From Candidatus Neomarinimicrobiota bacterium (GTDB taxonomy: Bacteria; Fidelibacterota; UBA2242; B5-G15), in the NCBI GenBank assembly GCA_017656425.1, contig JACDNV010000008.1, positions 62,001 through 126,000 on the forward strand: a stretch of DNA of 64,000 bases, read 5' to 3'. Positions 33,071 to 41,850 of this stretch are shown here, piece after piece. Below the pieces are notes generated by a model that was given only the letters and a program-made list of their open reading frames with translations, had not been told where the DNA came from and made no database searches. The stretch's first letter is position 1. Each line of letters opens with the position of its first letter. A program made the translations under genes and the position numbers.

Positions 33071-34444
33071 TTACTTTAATAGCAAAAGCTTCTTTGTGTC
33101 GTAGTAAGTTCCTGCGTGGAATCTACAGAAGTAAACTCCGCTTGGCAGATTAGAACAATTGAAGGAAACGGAATAGGTACCGGCATTCTCGCGCTTATTT
33201 ACCAGTGTTTTAACCTTCCTTCCGAGTATGTTGTAGATCTCTATTGTTACTTTTGTAGTAATTGGAAGTTGATAGGAAATCGTGGTAGACGAATTAAATG
33301 GGTTAGGGTAAATCTGTAAGAGAGAAAAATCCCTTGTAATTGCATATTTATCTTCTACAACATCAAATACCACACCTCCCTCACGGTACACAGCAAGTCC
33401 TCCACTCTCAGCTCCGATCCATTTGTTTCCCTCTTCATCTATCGCTATTGCATTGACCCAATTATTAGGCAATCCTGAATTACTTGTGTTGTAAACAGTC
33501 CAACTTACTCCATCGAATTTTGCAAGTCCTCCACCATCTGTTCCGATCCATTTGTTTCCCTCTCCATCTACTGTTATTACATTGACATCATTATCGGGTA
33601 ATCCTGAGTTACTTGTGTTATAAACTGTCCAGTTTACTCCATCGAATTTTGCAAGTCCATCGCCTGTTCCGATCCATTTGTTTCCCTCTTCATCTATTGC
33701 TATTGCTATGACATAATTATCAGGTAATCCTGAGTTACTTGTGTTGTAAACAGTCCAATTTACTCCATCGAATTTCACAAGTCCATAACCTGTTCCGATC
33801 CATTTGATTCCCTCTCCATCTATTGCTATTGCCAAGACATCATTATCATGCAATCCTGAGTTACTTGTGTTGTAAACAGTCCAATTTACTCCATCGAATT
33901 TTGCAAGTCCTCCACCCCATGTTCCGATCCATTTGTTTCCCTCTTTATCTATTGCTATTGCTCTGACATGGTCAGTGGGTAATCCTGAGTTACTTTTGTT
34001 ATAAGCAGCCCAATTTACTCCATCGAATTTTGCAAGACCTCCACCCCATGTTCCGATCCATTTGTTTCCCTCTCCATCTACTGTTATTACATTGACATCA
34101 TTATAGGGTAATCCTGAGTTACTTGTGTTGTAAACAGTCCAATTTACTCCATCGAATTTTGCAAGTCCATAACCTGTTCCGATCCATTTGTTACCCTCTT
34201 TATCTATTGCTATTGCTCTGACATAATTATCAGGTAATCCTGAATTACTTTTGTTGAAAAATTCTGTTTGTCCTGTCTGTTTATGTAGCTTTACAATGCC
34301 ACCAGTTGTCCCAATCCAAAGATAATTTCCTTCTTCAATTATTTCAGTTATTATTTTGCCTGAAGTATAATTAATCCACTCAGGATTTTGTGAAAATGCA
34401 AAAGTGAAAAATAAAATAAAAAGTATAATGCTTAAATTTTTCAT
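33071..34444 (-). CDS. Secreted Reg_prop-repeat propeller with T9SS type-A tail
   Basis: 457 aa. A signal peptide ([16 protein letters not shown]) yields a mature protein starting with Gln or Asn, then about eight tandem repeats of 41-43 residues with the pattern [37 protein letters not shown]. These are two-component-regulator propeller (Reg_prop) repeats and would close into a beta-propeller. The last 80 residues are a T9SS sorting domain ([19 protein letters not shown] ... [39 protein letters not shown] ... KKLLLLK). No enzymatic or DNA-binding domain is present, so it is a secreted propeller rather than a regulator. The repeats are almost identical at DNA level, so copy number may vary between strains. 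It is the first gene left of the cassette array. Confidence 0.85.
33418..34240 (-). repeat. Tandem coding repeats of 123-129 bases
   Basis: About six to seven near-identical units inside the Reg_prop gene, each containing on the plus strand CCGATCCATTTGTTTCCCTC and later AATCCTGAGTTACTTGTGTT. The period is 123 or 129 bases. They are coding repeats, not a CRISPR: the units are continuous with no variable spacers. Confidence 0.9.
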
Positions 34445-34594
34445 TTTTCCCCTCTAATGTTTCACTTTAAATAAAATTTATTTTTTTAATTTAAAAATAC
34501 AATATTCTTAATTTGAACGAAGGTTACTGTTGAATCTTATGGTGTTGCAGGCATGGTAGTAACTCTCAATTAATCTTGAAAAGGCAAATGTTCT

Positions 34595-34673
34595 GCTTAA
34601 CGTTGTGGGGATAAAAAGTTGCTGGAGACAATTTGGACCGAGCGTAGCGAAGCTACATATCCACATGTTAAGT
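34595..34673 (-). repeat. attC-like recombination site 1
   Basis: Plus-strand ends GCTTAAC and GTTAAGT are RYYYAAC and GTTRRRY boxes; inner arms GTGGGGATA and ATATCCACA pair with one bulged base; the centre holds GAGCGTAGCGAAGC and ATTTGGA. It lies downstream of the Cys-rich protein gene, where the attC of that cassette should be. 79 bases. Confidence 0.72.
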
Positions 34674-34728
34674 GACCTGAAGGGCAGGGTGCAAGGCGCT
34701 GCGGAGCCTGAGACAAGGTGCACTAAAA

Positions 34729-35931
34729 TCATTTAAGCCCACCTCTACATATTTCCCTACTAATCCCTTCTTTAATGATACAATTTTTCTCTTTACATCT
34801 GGCAATATAACCACAGCTTAATAAAGCTACAGGACAATATTTATCTTTTGTCGGAATGCAAATAAAATCAACACCATTTTCCCCGAAAAGACAAACATCG
34901 CATAATTTTTTATTGCACATTCTGGGAACAAAATCAAAAGTTATATCAAATTGTTCGGGATAAAAATCCTTAACATCTTTCTCATTTTTCAATTGATTAT
35001 AAATCTCCCTAACTATTCTTGGCATATTCCAAGTTTTAGGAATGTTACTAAGATCTAACACATCCACAAACAAATTATCCCTGAATAGAGGACTGTTATT
35101 CCAGACATCACCTGGTAATTCTATTTGATTCATGGGCAAATTATTCCAGACATTCAATAGTTCGTTTGCATGGTCATCGGGTACTACTTCTTTTATAGCA
35201 TCATTGAATATTTTGTTGTATAATCCTTTTTTATAGTCTCTAACACAACACCACAATCTCTTTTTTCCGCTCGTAGAGGTTCTTTTGAATTCATTAAGTC
35301 TTTCTTCAAATTTCTTATCATCGTTCAAAGTTTCTAGAATTTTGTAAGGTGTTGCCTTTTTTCCATCAAGATTATAAGTCAGTAAATGTAAGGCACATGC
35401 CACTCTTATAAGAAGGTCATCTTTCCCTCTAAATCGTTTAATAAAATATGATATAAAGGCGACAATATTCCTTTTATATTTATTTCCACCAATAGTTACT
35501 TCATATTTGTCTAGACATTCTAAGGTTTGGAGTATGTTTTGATAATCATCGGTGATATATCTGGATGCGAAGATAACATTATCAGTTTTAGATTTAAATC
35601 TGAATCGTTCTTTACCTTTATTATCACTATATTTTTCATAATATTCATTTAAAATCTCTTCCGGAGGTCCGTTTTGCTCTCTCGAATATTCATATATAAG
35701 TTCAGAAAAGACATATCCACCCTTATTCCATACGATTTCAAATGGCATCTGTCTGTCAGTAATATAACAAATCCAGTGTGTGAGTATTTTTTCACAGTTA
35801 GTTAAATCTTTTCTAAAGAAATTTACAAAGTTATAATTCTCTTTGGTACTCCATCTACGTGTATCTAACCAAGAAATTGTTTTGAAAATTCTAACAAGTA
35901 GTTCTTTGTTTATTATTTTTATTTTTCCCAT
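34729..35931 (-). CDS. Cassette-borne protein with Cys-rich C-terminus, function unknown
   Basis: 400 aa, not recognised as a known family. The N-terminal half is charged and probably helical (KELLVRIFKTISWLDTRRWSTKENYNFVNFFRKD; ILTHWICYITDRQMPFE). The last 70 residues contain about ten cysteines: MCNKKLCDVCLFG, FIC, YCPVALLSCGYIARCKEKNC and ICRG. CxxxxCxxC spaced with a later CP and C resembles the zinc or iron-sulfur clusters found at the end of some DNA-processing proteins such as HhH-GPD glycosylases, but no helix-hairpin-helix motif is seen. It is flanked by attC-like sites on both sides; its start codon follows the cassette boundary (TTAAGTGAAATC...) by 29 bases, with no clear ribosome binding site, as is common in cassettes. 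Confidence 0.6.
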   Translation of the reverse strand: MGKIKIINKELLVRIFKTISWLDTRRWSTKENYNFVNFFRKDLTNCEKILTHWICYITDRQMPFEIVWNKGGYVFSELIYEYSREQNGPPEEILNEYYEKYSDNKGKERFRFKSKTDNVIFASRYITDDYQNILQTLECLDKYEVTIGGNKYKRNIVAFISYFIKRFRGKDDLLIRVACALHLLTYNLDGKKATPYKILETLNDDKKFEERLNEFKRTSTSGKKRLWCCVRDYKKGLYNKIFNDAIKEVVPDDHANELLNVWNNLPMNQIELPGDVWNNSPLFRDNLFVDVLDLSNIPKTWNMPRIVREIYNQLKNEKDVKDFYPEQFDITFDFVPRMCNKKLCDVCLFGENGVDFICIPTKDKYCPVALLSCGYIARCKEKNCIIKEGISREICRGGLK

Positions 35932-35954
35932 TACAATACATTGACAGTGATTTC

Positions 35955-36037
35955 ACTTAACGGTTGGTGGATATATATGTAGTCACATTTTACGGGATTT
36001 GGGTGAGCGCAAGCAAGTACTTATCCATCTGTTAAGT
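35955..36037 (-). repeat. attC-like recombination site 2
   Basis: Plus-strand ends ACTTAAC and GTTAAGT extend to a perfect 9-base inverted repeat TCACTTAAC/GTTAAGTGA; inner arms GGTGGATA and TATCCATC; the centre has ATTTGGGTGAGCGCAAGCAAGTAC. 83 bases. It forms the upstream boundary of the Cys-rich cassette. Confidence 0.75.
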
Positions 36038-37277
36038 GATTCTACCTGGAGGCGTGTAGATCAAAGCATTGCAAAGGGCTGGATAGTTAAATGGTTTGGT
36101 AATTATATGACTACCTTCCATCATACTTGCGTAGAAAATTTTTACTATTTAGTCTTTTAAATATTTTCCTTATTTGTTTATTATATTCATCGTATGTTTT
36201 ATTCTCTTTTATTAATATCAACAATTACTAAATCATGATTCAAAGCGGATATATCAACCTGACTTCTTCATTAACTTTCTCATGGTTTACTTCATATCTT
36301 TATTATATTTGCATTTGATTCGCCTAGCGTTCGAGGGTTCTGAAACAAGCTCTATCTTTGCTTTACTTTCCTCTTTCTATATACCTTACCCGCTACTGAT
36401 TCAACATGTTTTAACTCTGTGCTAGTTTGGGTCGAGGGGGCATAGGACAACCAGCCCACAGCCCTTTAATTATGGTAAGCGTCGTCTTTAGATGAGTGTG
36501 AAAAATAGCCACTTGTGGAGTCTGTAATAGAATTTCAAGAACATTCTTGAGGATGTTGTCTCCTCAAAATCAATAGCTGCGAGGGTAAGGGATGAAGGTA
36601 CCACGGTGATATAAGCTGTTTCTAATTCTTGTTTAGTGGCACTGTAAAGTTCTATCACAATATCAAATCTGAATTGTTTTGATATTTGAATCTCATTTCC
36701 TGAACCAAATGTAACCCATTAACTTTTATCCCAACTTAGACAGTCAAAAATTGTTCCTACAGCCACTCTACTCTATTATGAATAATGTGTCTAATCTCTT
36801 TCATTTTAAAGATTGTCAACCAACTTATCAACTTGCCTTAGAGTAAACCCAAACTTTTTCTCGGAAGAATCTTACATCCATTGGAGGTCCTTTACGCCGA
36901 TGATCTTTATAATGAGGATAGTCGTAGCCACACCCTAATCGTCTGGTTACACATTAGACTCAAGAGTCCCTAATTCCAGTATCCAGAAGTAGCATCCTAC
37001 AAGGTTCAGACTGATATAGCATTACGTCGTTAAACAAAGTCGCATAGAAGTTGTTGCTCTACTCCTTTTGAAATGTGTGCACAATGCTGATTGGCTACTC
37101 TCAACCCTTTTCTCTAATTCCTAAACATCTAAATTCTCACAGTTGAAAGACAAGTTCCGAACTGTAATATAGTATATCGGCGAAAGGAATCGTGTGCCTC
37201 AACGATGATACAACTCATTTAAGCGTCCCATGATCTTTCCTATGGGCATTGCCACACATGTTGTCCTCTACGCTTTG
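36038..37277 (-). other. Cassette-array stretch without an intact gene
   Basis: About 1.2 kb between attC site 2 and the HEPN-like gene. One minus-strand frame (about 36718 to 36488) reads like protein (VTFGSGNEIQISKQFRFDIVIELYSATKQELETAYITVVP...) but is closed at both ends by stops and has no start signal, so it looks like a gene fragment. The attC expected directly after the HEPN gene is not clear; the imperfect inverted pair CTCATTTAAGCG and CGCTTTGCTATGAG around 37220-37284 may be its degenerate form. Base composition is more even than in the host genes. Confidence 0.35.
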
Positions 37278-37925
37278 CTATGAGCGATCCCAGATTCTGA
37301 GAAGCTGATTGATCACCGGCACTATGACTTTCTCCAAGTCATGTCCGATGCTCATGACCACTCTTAAGTTGAGAAAAACATGCGCATCAACGTTGCGGCG
37401 AATATCAGCAAGCGTTGTTAGATGGTGAGTAAGGTCTTCTTCCTCTTGCTTTGTTATGACACCGCTGGACGTTAACTTAGAGACAAACTTCTGGATGAGG
37501 GTGCCTAATGTGTGTGAGTTAATGTTCCATAGTGATTCAATCCCTGCAGAAATCAATTGCTTCTGAAGCCACGGGTTCGACTTTGCTACCACTTTAGTGC
37601 TCAGTGCAGCCTTATATACGGTATTATACGGTGCAACAGCTGATTCGAGACGGGTCTCGAGTGCTCTGTTCTTGAGATAGAGGCACCGATGCTTTAGTAA
37701 AACTGCTTTAAGGAGGCATTCGATTCCGATGCTTATGCCAATCCATTGAAGATGTGCCATTACTGGGTCATTCATTAGCTTGCGTGCCCATTCCCTGGAG
37801 TTTTTAGCTATGAATACCTCGACAGGATTTTCTCTCATAGAAAAGGGCCCAGATCGCATCAAAAGCGCTAGACTATGTGATCTAAGAGTTTTATCCCAAT
37901 TACTTATGTCTAGATATACTGTCAT
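37278..37925 (-). CDS. HEPN-like protein, probable RNase-type cassette gene
   Basis: 215 aa, all-helical by appearance. The centre WIGISIGIECLLKAVLLKHRC and the later IRRNVDAHVFLNLRVV give the layout of HEPN domains: a helix with conserved acidic and apolar residues, then R-x4-H, here R177-NVDA-H182, the usual RNA-cleaving motif. No transmembrane segment or signal peptide. HEPN proteins act as RNases in toxin-antitoxin and phage-abortive systems; no nucleotidyltransferase (MNT) partner gene is visible next to it. GC content is clearly higher than in flanking genes, suggesting foreign origin. The cassette start TTATGAG lies in attC site 3, 35 bases before the ATG. The domain call rests on pattern only. 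Confidence 0.5.
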   Translation of the reverse strand: MTVYLDISNWDKTLRSHSLALLMRSGPFSMRENPVEVFIAKNSREWARKLMNDPVMAHLQWIGISIGIECLLKAVLLKHRCLYLKNRALETRLESAVAPYNTVYKAALSTKVVAKSNPWLQKQLISAGIESLWNINSHTLGTLIQKFVSKLTSSGVITKQEEEDLTHHLTTLADIRRNVDAHVFLNLRVVMSIGHDLEKVIVPVINQLLRIWDRS

Positions 37926-37958
37926 ATAATGCCACTCGAACAGTTATTTTGACGTATC

Positions 37959-38046
37959 TCATAACGTTTTGGGACATTTGAAGTTTCGCGAAGCCGAATT
38001 TTGGCGGAGGTACGAAGCACCGTGGACAGATACCCGCTTGTTAGGC
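37959..38046 (-). repeat. attC-like recombination site 3
   Basis: The right end GTTAGGC fits GTTRRRY exactly; the left end TCATAAC comes from the neighbouring cassette and does not match it, as expected after cassette insertion. Inner arm CAGATACCCGC and centre ATTTTGGCGGAGGTACGAAGCACC match site 4 closely (about 35 bases of clear similarity from the right end). 88 bases. Confidence 0.72.
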
Positions 38047-38080
38047 GACAGCACCTTAAAGGTGTGTGTTTTGACAGTGC

Positions 38081-40057
38081 TCATTTTATCCCCTCATTAA
38101 TTTCTAAGATTTTGTACACAATCTCTTTTAATCTTCTTCTTTCTACAGCATTCTCTTCAAACCAATTTTTAAAATTATCAGACTTAGTAAATTCAATTAC
38201 ACCATTCGAGTTTTTATACCCATCAGGCAAAAAATCTTCTATTTCGCCATACTCAAATTTGTCTCCACCATATAGTATAAAAATATTTTTCTCCTCTTTT
38301 TGGTTTATATACTCTCTCAATTCATTAATATCTTTTTCTGTTAATCCATCTTTTAATTTCAAATGTCTATCTTTCATGTAATTCCATAAACTTTTTAGTT
38401 CTTCAGTTATTTTATTCACCTTTATTGCATCTTCAATTATTTCCGACAATCTTTTTCCATTAAGAGATTTTTTATATTTTATTGCTTTGTCGATAGATGA
38501 ATAATCAATGTTAAATAATGCTTTTATTTTATGATTTTCATCTTTTTCTGCTAATTCTTTAACATAGTCAAGATCAGCAATTATGTAATATTCACAATTT
38601 ATTTCTTCCAGAAGTTGCTCATATTTATCAAAATTATGTTTCCCACCAACATCTAATACTTCCACAACTTGAGGTTTGTCACTTTCTGATTGGTAAAAGC
38701 TTATCAATTTTTTAAAAATTAGTCTATCTATAACACCTTCTACTAACACGACTTTATCAGCAAAAAATAACTTTTCATTATTGTAGCTGTTCACTATATG
38801 AAGGATATCTCTTACTTGAGGTAAATATTCTTCTCTTATTTTTATGCTTTTGCTCGTCCCTGTATCATCCCTGTATATTCTTATTACGTTGGAGATCGTC
38901 TTTTCATCTATAAAAATAGCTGAATGTGTAGATACAATAAATTGATTGCTAGTCTTGATACTTAGTTCTACAAAAAGCTCTATTAGTAACTTCTGCCACT
39001 GCGGATGCAAATGTAGGTCTGGCTCATCAATAATAATTAATCCATTACTAATATTAAGGGCAAAAATACCTAGTAAGAAATTCATTATTTCTTTTTCACC
39101 AGAACTCGCTTGTGAGAGTGAGAATTCTTTTCCATCCTTTTTTAGAGTGATTTTATAAATATTTATATCAGGATTTTCAGGATTTATATCCCAATCATAG
39201 TTCAACTTTTTCAAATATCCAGTAATTAACTTGACTTCTTCATCATTTATCCAGTGATTATGGTAGCCATTATTTTTTGCACTTATTTCCATTCTTCTTC
39301 TTTTTTGAGAAAAATAGAAACACGCTAATTCTATCGCTGAAGATATAGACTTTGAAGTGGATTTTGCATAACTCTGATATAACTGATAAAAATTTCGGGC
39401 TGAAAGATTGGTCTGTAAATTGCTTACATCCATTGCTCTATACGGGGAAAAATAAAGATAAATTGGTTTTAAATTTATTTCTTCTTCGGAAAGAATCAGG
39501 AAAAGTTCAAAGTTATTTAGATAGCTTAAATAAGCTTTTTCATTATTTCCAGCTGGATTGGGTGGTTGATACTTTTGTATGATATATCTCAACTCCATTC
39601 CTTCTCTTAAATCGCTATTTTCAAAATTTTGGCAAACAGATTCTATGTTTCCAATAAAATTATATCCATTTCTGTATTTCCTTAAATTCCCTTTTAAAAT
39701 TTCTTTCTTGAGTTTTATCTCATTTATATTCTTAACGTCTTCCATAGTTAACTCGAAAACAATTTCTATTGATGAGATATTACTCTCATTGCCAATAAAT
39801 TTATCTAAGTAATTTTGTATTGGATTAAAAAGCGGGGATTTTTGAATGTTCCTAAAAAATCCTGTTTGATCACTCTGATCAATAACAGTGAATACTTCCA
39901 CAAAATAATGTCTAATTACTATTGTTATAATATCAAGTAAGTTACTTTTACCTCCAGCATTAGGCCCTATCAAAATATTGAAGCCTTTATCAAATTCAAT
40001 AGTAGTTCTTTCTCTAAAGCTTCTTATATTTTCAATTGTAATACTTTTTAACTTCAT
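38081..40057 (-). CDS. OLD-family endonuclease (ABC ATPase plus TOPRIM), class 1-like
   Basis: 658 aa from the ATG directly after AGGAGGTG. The N-terminal ATPase (residues 1-420) begins KSITIENIRSF with Walker A GPNAGGKS at 31-38, the ABC signature SQASSGEKE near 315-323, Walker B LIIIDEPDLHLHP at 340-351 and STHS with the H-loop at 376-379. The C-terminal TOPRIM nuclease shows VLVEGVIDRL with Glu440 and IIADLDYVK with Asp495/Asp497, as in OLD (overcoming lysogenisation defect) nucleases. OLD proteins nick or cut DNA and defend against phage. No UvrD-like helicase partner (Gabija type) follows, so it fits the stand-alone class 1 type. It occupies one cassette: attC sites 3 and 4 bracket it within 41 and 35 bases. 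Confidence 0.85.
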   Translation of the reverse strand: MKLKSITIENIRSFRERTTIEFDKGFNILIGPNAGGKSNLLDIITIVIRHYFVEVFTVIDQSDQTGFFRNIQKSPLFNPIQNYLDKFIGNESNISSIEIVFELTMEDVKNINEIKLKKEILKGNLRKYRNGYNFIGNIESVCQNFENSDLREGMELRYIIQKYQPPNPAGNNEKAYLSYLNNFELFLILSEEEINLKPIYLYFSPYRAMDVSNLQTNLSARNFYQLYQSYAKSTSKSISSAIELACFYFSQKRRRMEISAKNNGYHNHWINDEEVKLITGYLKKLNYDWDINPENPDINIYKITLKKDGKEFSLSQASSGEKEIMNFLLGIFALNISNGLIIIDEPDLHLHPQWQKLLIELFVELSIKTSNQFIVSTHSAIFIDEKTISNVIRIYRDDTGTSKSIKIREEYLPQVRDILHIVNSYNNEKLFFADKVVLVEGVIDRLIFKKLISFYQSESDKPQVVEVLDVGGKHNFDKYEQLLEEINCEYYIIADLDYVKELAEKDENHKIKALFNIDYSSIDKAIKYKKSLNGKRLSEIIEDAIKVNKITEELKSLWNYMKDRHLKLKDGLTEKDINELREYINQKEEKNIFILYGGDKFEYGEIEDFLPDGYKNSNGVIEFTKSDNFKNWFEENAVERRRLKEIVYKILEINEGIK

Positions 40058-40097
40058 TTTATACACCTCCTTGCTCATAGAGCACGGTCAAAATGTC

Positions 40098-40189
40098 GTC
40101 TAACGGTGCGGCGGGTATCTGAAGTCTGAGCGTAGTGAGGATTTGGGCTAAGATACGAAGCATCGTAGCCAGATACCCGCTTGTTATCT
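40098..40189 (-). repeat. attC-like recombination site 4
   Basis: The left end GTCTAAC is a perfect RYYYAAC box, the right end GTTATCT an imperfect GTTRRRY. Inner arms GCGGGTATCTG and CAGATACCCGC form a perfect 11-base inverted repeat; the centre has ATTTGGGCTAAGATACGAAGC. 92 bases. It separates the OLD cassette from the HsdR-N-like cassette. Confidence 0.75.
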
Positions 40190-40212
40190 GATGTTGCAGG
40201 CTTCTATGTTTT

Positions 40213-41245
40213 TTAGGGATACCACTTCCTCTTAGTTCGATAATGAACGTAGTAATGCCAAAGGAAATTATGAACCGCTGCCAATCCAAATCCAAAACCG
40301 TGTTTCTGTAATCTATCTTTCAATTTTTCCTCGTATAATCTCTTGCAAATTTCATTAATATATACATAACCATTTGCGGTATCGTTCTTGATCAAAATAT
40401 CTGTGATCTTCAAATGCCTGAGTGCTTTAGAAACGTTTTTTTCAAGAACAACATATTCATTTGGATGCGCGCCTGCAAGAAGCTGAGTGATAAAGAAAAT
40501 ACCACCCCCCCCTTAAGTAGAGATCTCCTTTTCTGTCCAACATCTGATTAATATTAATAACGGGTTCACCCTTGAAATCACGGATAAATTTAAGAACTTT
40601 TTTGAATTTATTAAAATCATTATCAATTTGTTTGAACAGCTTATTCCTATTTGGGGGTTTCATCATTACGTTATCTCTCAAAGCATTCTTTAACTTATGT
40701 GGGGAGATAGAATCTATCTGTTTGAACACTTTATTAAATAACTGTTTGGATGCATCATCGTGCCATTTTGTGTCCTCCAAAAATTTACTTTCATTTTTAA
40801 GTCCAATAAAAAACAAATCAATCAAATTATCGATTTGAGGGGGAAAAGAAATGTATTCTACACCCGTTTTCAAATATTCGGAAGAAGGCTTTGGTGGAAA
40901 GTTTTGAAGAGGAATACTTTTTCCTTGCGAATTCCCCGTGCTATAAAACTGAAACGAACTCCCATCTGTAACACAAAAGAAAGGTACATTAAGTATAAGG
41001 CTGTATGACTCTGCCTGTGGAATAGCCTCATGGTCTAGACTGGCACCCTTTTTTTTAACTTCGATAAGCAACCATGGAACTGCTCTTTGACCTTGTTAAA
41101 TATAGCAAACATAATCTGCCCAAACCGTAGACATACCAATTTGGATAGGAACACGACCATAAGAACTTATTAGCTTTTCAGGCCAACCATATTTGTCTCG
41201 AAAATAAGGCAAGACCTTTTTGATAGCGATTTCATATTCGTTCAT
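40213..41245 (-). pseudogene. HsdR-N-like PD-(D/E)XK nuclease, interrupted twice
   Basis: From ATG 41245 the frame reads MNEYEIAIKKVLPYFRDKYG ... IQIGMSTVWADYVCYI, then an in-frame TAA (41096-41098), then QGQRAVPWLLIEVKKKGASLDHEAIPQAESYS. This is the catalytic core of the type I restriction subunit N-terminal domain family: Asp44, Glu62-x-Lys64 and Gln77. The frame continues to a run of eight G (minus strand, 40505-40512), where one extra base shifts it; with seven G it would continue GGIFFITQLLAGAHPNEYVVLEKNV ... HNFLWHYYVHYRTKRKWYP to the stop at 40213. Intact it would be about 340 aa, without helicase domains, so probably a stand-alone nuclease. Either true decay or a sequencing error at the homopolymer; the TAA is harder to explain as an error. 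Confidence 0.72.
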
Positions 41246-41283
41246 TATCGTTCACCTTCTTGATTTCTCGAGCCTGCAATTTC

Positions 41284-41359
41284 TGATAACTCGTTCATAT
41301 CCGAACTTTTCGAATATGTTCCCGAATGATAAGTATATGCGAATAGTTCGCATATACTT
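41284..41359. repeat. Inverted repeats at the head of the cassette array (attI- or attC-like)
   Basis: CTGATAAC marks the boundary of the HsdR-N cassette (own R'' is ATCAGATAAC). Next to it are CATATCCGAA/TTCGAATATG and then a perfect 13-base inverted repeat AAGTATATGCGAA-TAG-TTCGCATATACTT. The palindromes sit between the recombinase remnant and the first cassette, where attI would be, but the form is not a classical attI. Confidence 0.4.
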
Positions 41360-41400
41360 CCTTCTAGATGATCATTTCTCTTTGTTTTTATCCTCATATT

Positions 41401-41850
41401 TCACACCTTTTTTAAAAGATTATCAAGAGGGTTTTTTATCGTAGAAAGATTTTTTGTGCTCACATGGGTATAAATCTCAGTTGTTTTATTATGCCTGTGA
41501 CGAACATATCTCGGATCTGTTCTGCTATATAATAAATGAGTGGCAAAACTTTTTCTTAAAGCATGAATTTTAACATCACTAAATGAATTAGATTGCTTCT
41601 TGGCTTTGTCCTTCGCAATGACGGGGTAGGTTGCAGCTTGCAGTGTGGGATCTACGCAAATTTCTTTGTCTTCAAAGGTTTTAGAGTCATACTCTAATGT
41701 ATTATCACTATTTGGGGAGCTAAGGTATTTACCAGAAGGGTGTAAACAAGAGTCTTGAATAGTTTTTGTTTTTTCAATAGTATAAGCATCATACAAAAAG
41801 TAATCCCTGATTTCACTCGAATTAATTTTATGAACATGAATCAGATGCAT
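41401..41850 (-). pseudogene. Tyrosine recombinase remnant (integrase C-terminal end)
   Basis: Only the last third is recombinase-like: KIHALRKSFATHLLYSRTDPRYV, then TTEIYTHVSTKNLSTIKNPLDNLLKKV, giving the H-x-L-R box and the Tyr nucleophile typical of XerC/D- and IntI-like enzymes. The four or so residues around 'ELLGHKS' are missing between the two parts. Upstream residues 1-90 do not look like a recombinase, and residues 66-85 are encoded by an inserted dispersed repeat. The N-terminal domain and first catalytic Arg are absent, so the gene is dead. It lies on the same strand as the cassettes, at the promoter-proximal end of the array. Confidence 0.7.
41591..41624 (-). repeat. REP-like dispersed repeat inside the recombinase remnant
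   Basis: On the minus strand, CCCGTCATTGCGAAGGACAA followed by AGCCAAGAAGCAATC. It closely resembles the widespread bacterial palindromic repeat of the form CGTCATTGCGA...GAAGCAATC. I see no second copy in this window. Confidence 0.55.

Follow-up and report, generated by a model that had tools for sequence, protein, structure and literature searches.

The closest described relatives of the locus analysed here are the sedentary chromosomal integrons. Common to both are a dedicated tyrosine recombinase, an adjacent attI site and same-strand gene cassettes that end in an attC site with the order R''/L''/L'/R' and are joined at G|TT. Integrons in the strict sense also possess an IntI-specific additional domain in the integrase, and the L'' arm of their attC carries an extrahelical base. 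The I2 helix of VchIntIA touches the extrahelical base G20'' (PMC3053210), and the joint origin of I2 and extrahelical bases has been presented as a chicken-and-egg paradox, because neither would be selected alone (Escudero et al. 2016, PMC4792948). The described archaeal integrons have the IntI-specific domain (PMC9668308), whereas the insertion is not fully conserved among integron-like recombinases, as noted by Smyshlyaev et al. 2021 (PMC8138268). In Treponema integrons the recombinase is transcribed toward attI (PMC3607928), as in the system described below. CALIN is the IntegronFinder term for an attC cluster without an integron integrase. In the open-licence literature, preprints excluded, searches on integron-like systems with other recombinases, on XerA with integrons and on FCB integrons gave no description of insertion-less recombinases at cassette arrays.

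The 64-kb window, meaning the whole stretch of 64,000 nucleotides, comes from Candidatus Neomarinimicrobiota, which NCBI places in Fidelibacterota within the FCB group, in line with the FCB-lineage host proposed in a preliminary description made from the sequence. It contains a true array, in which four gene cassettes follow a broken recombinase (Table 1). This array is not a standard integron and is part of a widespread integron-like system, whose recombinases are here called type B.

Table 1. Features of the cassette array in the window, with E values from covariance models R1 and R2
Feature	Coordinates	Strand	Description
Type B tyrosine recombinase remnant	41401..41850	(-)	N-terminal extension joined to C-terminus; middle, including the first catalytic Arg, deleted
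attI	41290..41358	(-)	Inverted-repeat units 41332-41358 and about 41296-41318; ends at crossover G|TT (41290/41289)
Cassette 1	40104..41289	(-)	HsdR_N-like gene (PF13588), ATG ~41246, and its attC (site 4)
attC site 4	40098-40189	(-)	92 bp; R1 E 3.4e-24, R2 E 3.3e-11
Cassette 2	37965..40103	(-)	OLD-type ATPase/TOPRIM nuclease gene 38081-40078 and its attC (site 3)
attC site 3	37959-38046	(-)	88 bp; R1 E 7.9e-21
Cassette 3	35961..37964	(-)	215-aa gene 37278-37925 (HEPN-like motif only), ~1.2 kb without clear gene, and attC (site 2)
attC site 2	35955-36037	(-)	83 bp; R1 E 4.3e-4, R2 E 6.7e-4; held out of R1
Cassette 4	34601..35960	(-)	400-aa gene 34729-35931, Cys-rich C-terminus, and its attC (site 1)
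attC site 1	34595-34673	(-)	79 bp; R1 E 1.9e-8, R2 E 3.2e-8; held out of R1

The four foldable sites in one orientation, the minus-strand genes around them and the recombinase remnant at the array head, all reported in the preliminary description, are present. Each site has the ends NNNTAAC ... GTTANNN, paired inner arms and a centre that reads CCAAAT or CAAAAT on the minus strand (ATTTGG on the plus strand). The main window genes are all on the minus strand, and each site is located 3' of one of them. Covariance model R1 was seeded with sites 3 and 4, a further site of the same genome (contig C19) and a single site from each of two relatives. Searched over both strands of the window, it gives exactly four matches, including the two held-out sites. 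A plain box-and-arm scan recovers only two of the four, and over 100 shuffles its count averages 0.42 and reaches 2 at most; it is weak alone, and the claim therefore rests on the covariance model and on comparative data. A scan with strictly anchored arms misses the window sites because the R-L spacers are unequal, and its relaxed version finds site 4 and three sites on contigs C18 and C19 of the same genome. MAFFT alignment of the first ten sites misplaced the box ends, so divergent sites were excluded from the seed and served as test cases. Rfam gave no meaningful match.

The cassette genes agree in part with their earlier labels. The OLD nuclease is secure: its gene matches AAA_15 and OLD-like_TOPRIM in Pfam and Old (137 bits) and GajA (93 bits) in PADLOC. 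The HsdR_N-like gene is present but broken, with an in-frame stop at ~41099 and a frameshift at the C-run at ~40503 as judged by frame analysis, and the HEPN label depends on a motif. The 215-aa and 400-aa genes match no Pfam or PADLOC family, and cassette 3 is possibly a decayed composite. The gene of cassette 4 occurs in three of 199 genomes, and a 71% identical copy lies beside its own attC among different neighbours on another contig of the same order (G015:C157). R1 sites are present in 13 of the 23 genomes of the order, some of them single occurrences. Beyond the last site, GCCTGCAACACCATAAGAT at 34531-34555 resembles the R'' flank of site 4 and is perhaps the remnant of a lost cassette end. 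A TTGCC...GGTC-form hairpin is located just upstream of R'' at many sites (L047, L048, L010 12600-12720, window 34674-34730). Just past the array end, the gene at 33071-34444 contains tandem 126/129-bp repeats; its product, a propeller protein of the two-component-regulator kind, has a type IX secretion tail.

The recombinase piece at the array head is real and is an internally deleted pseudogene. Across 63 aa, its C-terminal part is 60% identical to the corresponding end of a type B protein (L024 of genome G019), and a second segment matches the type B N-terminal extension; because both ends are matched, the piece is read as a type B recombinase that has lost its interior. Identity to IntI is only 37%, and PF00589 is matched at the C-terminal end only. 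The attI adjoins this remnant, as attI adjoins the integrase gene in strict integrons. It aligns with the regions downstream of intact type B genes from G019, a deltaproteobacterium, Nitrospirae, Nitrospinae and a micrarchaeote, all of which end in RAG|TT. In genomes G014 and G017 the attI regions are near-identical up to GTT and then differ. The contigs of G006, G018 and G019 and the WOR-3 contig L157 stop at the attI GTT point, which suggests variable junctions but could reflect repeats instead of activity.

Type B recombinases form a clade of their own. In the IQ-TREE phylogeny, type B (38 rows), IntI (10) and Xer (8) each fall on one side of a branch, with support of 98/91, 100/99 and 100/98, respectively. 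The spacing from KGxKDR to HxLRHSFA is 58–61 aa in type B (40 of 40), compared to 100–103 aa in IntI (9 of 9) and 65–66 aa in XerC/D. The IntI-specific additional domain is absent from type B, and scores fall below the TIGR02249 cut-off. Four intact type B proteins score 228–248 bits against NF040815 (XerA_Arch, site-specific tyrosine recombinase/integron integrase), which has a cut-off of 220. XerA is the archaeal dif recombinase; type B differs from it by its location at cassette arrays and by grouping apart from Xer in the tree. Type B may correspond to the insertion-less members of the integron-like subgroup of Smyshlyaev et al. 2021 (PMC8138268), which the available part of that paper does not link to attI/attC arrays. 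Some type B proteins (L024, L026, L029, L031) have an extra N-terminal domain of ~100 aa of the GHRWHPEGKYWSF type, and a piece similar to this domain is found as a separate ORF beside IntI in L041. A third related recombinase group (L142, L112, L113; C-terminus STFNLNKVKSPAG) is sister to the rest of type B, and no sites were detected near its members.

Intact type B genes are found elsewhere in the order and far beyond it. A contig scan with the type B alignment gave 80 named loci, which are spread over many phyla and include Archaea. In several bacterial phyla and in Altarchaeum, intact type B genes are accompanied by a conserved attI and by arrays on the same strand. The larger covariance model R2, built from 43 sites of this order only, gives about 40 sites at E<0.01 in these loci, almost always on the strand of the recombinase. 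A model-free arm scan adds further arrays, among them those of Halanaerobacter jeridensis DSM 23230, Paenibacillus alkalitolerans and Spirosoma; apart from an opposite-strand array at L169, every array shares its strand with the recombinase. Across the phylum, 22 of 149 genomes have a site at E<=1e-4, and 13 of these 22 belong to this order.

The sites are distinct from those of IntI integrons. Like strict integrons, the array consists of same-strand genes that each end in an R''/L''/L'/R' site. In contrast to integron attCs, the L helix lacks an extrahelical base and the R box is extended (GTTANNNGAAAT). The L arms are bulge-free in 78 of 80 type B sites, whereas 13 of 14 IntI-type attCs have a bulge on the '' arm. 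The sites in A5 had been aligned to the model, and those of the arm scan had been selected as bulge-free. A covariance model of IntI-type attCs was also built (R3), which is a limited control as it consists mostly of class 1 sites. R3 matches none of the four window sites, even with filters off, and none of the other type B sites, and was dropped as a detector of them, while it detects IntI-type sites including a held-out one from the same order. R2 gives no match in class 1 loci or in the IntI-bearing contigs searched. The models of the two attC kinds thus do not cross-detect, and the covariance-model check proposed earlier came out differently for the two kinds of model, as R1 retrieves all four sites. 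The original reading as an integron is right as to the cassette array and the recombinase remnant, and an attI is present too, but the locus is not an integron in the strict sense: its recombinase is type B and not IntI, and R3 finds none of its sites.

These comparisons bear on the reading of the locus as a decayed ordinary integron, in which the array was assembled by a canonical IntI and has its type B remnant as a neighbour by chance. As in a CALIN, there are several attC-like sites and no intact integrase. Moreover, IntI above the family cut-off is present in nine of the 23 genomes of the order, IntI-like fragments occur on contigs C19 and C20 of the same genome, and the R boxes are similar to integron boxes. 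The window array differs from a CALIN by its attI, its type B remnant and its other kind of attC. The failure of R3 at the window sites despite its success at the held-out IntI-type site of the order, the lack of R2 matches in the IntI-bearing contigs, the type B attI adjoining the remnant and the same-strand arrays at type B loci far outside the order make a decayed ordinary integron improbable.

Cassette behaviour leaves a signature at the junctions. In a cassette circle the R' is formed with the cassette's own 5' end, and the sequence after the upstream G|TT should therefore match the cassette's own R'' flank. In cassette 1, 17 of 20 bases at the 5' end (41271-41290) agree with the cassette's own R'' flank (40183-40202); in cassette 2, the 5' end is complementary to its own R'' flank in a match that runs around an insertion; closure is weak in cassettes 3 and 4. 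Over 47 neighbouring pairs, the summed closure score is 724 against 526 ± 18 in permuted pairs, and none of 20,000 permutations is as high. Sites of other phyla that were found without a model give 243 against 156 ± 13, again with none of 20,000 as high. The nearest upstream ORF is on the same strand at 75 of 78 tested sites, mostly within 100 bp. A 198-aa GNAT cassette is common to the genome of the window, G010 and an Atribacteria MAG (68–69% identity). On the closure signature, the R1 matches and the recurrence of the cassette 4 gene beside its own attC, the cassette array with attC-like sites recognised in the preliminary description is upheld. The same sites do occur singly in relatives, as had been named among the outcomes that would speak against it, but with same-strand upstream ORFs at nearly all tested sites they are not unlinked to genes. 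Single sites across the order would also suit dispersed hairpin repeats, REP or MITE-like, that were inserted downstream of genes and have no cassette behaviour. The closure signature, the strand rule, the divergence of attI at GTT and the shared units of gene and site are not expected of repeats, and this explanation, which was rejected on closure and the strand rule, has next to no probability.

The locus is very probably a degenerate integron-like platform on which type B acted at attI and the attCs. Type B, a clade apart from IntI and without the I2 domain, is the putative catalyst, its link to the arrays being one of association, and would act at the adjacent attI and at the attC sites 3' of each gene. 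A cassette would be excised as a circle with a complete attC, and integration at attI would cut the site at G|TT, so that half of R' becomes the 5' end of the cassette. Most likely it is the folded single strand of attC that reacts, which would also imply a choice of strand. In the predicted fold, the R arm is followed by an asymmetric spacer (about 2 vs 5–6 nt), an 11-bp bulge-free L helix and variable side hairpins around CCAAAT. In the R2 alignment, 213 cells are changed on both sides of a pair, compared to 75 when shuffled and a maximum of 43 with slid partners, in an alignment that was fitted to the structure and so favours pairing. TAAC/GTTA is almost always paired, and the three outermost R pairs are open in 18–26 of 41 sequences, as is expected if the R' box is split and its tail is part of the next cassette.

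A variant of this platform, compatible with the cassette claim, is that type B uses ordinary double-strand exchange and that the hairpin arises only incidentally, from the symmetry of the binding arms. Xer-type recombinases work on double-stranded sites, and with bulge-free arms a site lacks what is reported to prevent second-strand exchange in integrons (PMC4792948). Against these points, the arm sequence varies while pairing is kept through paired changes, which suits recognition of shape and not of sequence, and the spacers are asymmetric; palindromic double-strand sites are thus somewhat unlikely, and folded single-strand attCs on a type B platform are preferred.

In the genome of the window, R1 gives 17 matches at E<=5, clustered on contigs C1, C6, C8, C18, C19 and C20, and no intact type B or IntI gene was found. 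Many attC clusters, including those of this genome, have no intact recombinase nearby. Unless a recombinase acts on it in trans, the window array is probably immobile. Contigs C1, C18 and C20 (L072, L011, L009) break off within an attC-like site or about 60 bp beyond one, so the arrays continue into unassembled sequence. The IntI-like fragments resemble true IntI of the additional-domain type (G000:C19:356-634 and C20:32617-32826; L006, L003); both kinds of recombinase may once have been present, and IntI could have moved some of the cassettes of this genome.

Defence genes are frequent in the arrays of this genome. A second minus-strand array on contig C19 (G000, L010; 5996-12619) carries a methyltransferase and a CfrBI-type nuclease, a GajB-like helicase, PDC-S02 and bSEFIR between attC-like sites. 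In the window array, the OLD/GajA-like nuclease is certain as the only secure defence gene. The earlier account of defence-type cassettes therefore holds for at least this one; PADLOC gave no match for the other three cassette genes, and the HsdR-like gene is broken. The cassettes of the window may serve in defence. A dedicated defence island was considered and dropped, as many cassettes encode GNATs, methyltransferases and membrane proteins.

Since the I2 helix contacts the extrahelical base and the type B system has neither, both partners are missing together. Type B is a related clade that lacks I2 and extrahelical bases and yet lies beside cassette arrays, which bears on the evolution of integrons. 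It is likely that these recombinases and sites represent a second integron lineage, with an I2-less integrase clade and attCs without extrahelical bases in many bacterial phyla and Archaea, and this lineage may preserve the state before the co-evolution of I2 and extrahelical bases. If the type B system is active, cassette capture would need neither I2 nor extrahelical bases, and the paradox of their joint origin would become testable. Searches that demand the IntI domain would then overlook one class of platforms for gene capture, which is present in Bacteria and Archaea, cultured strains included.
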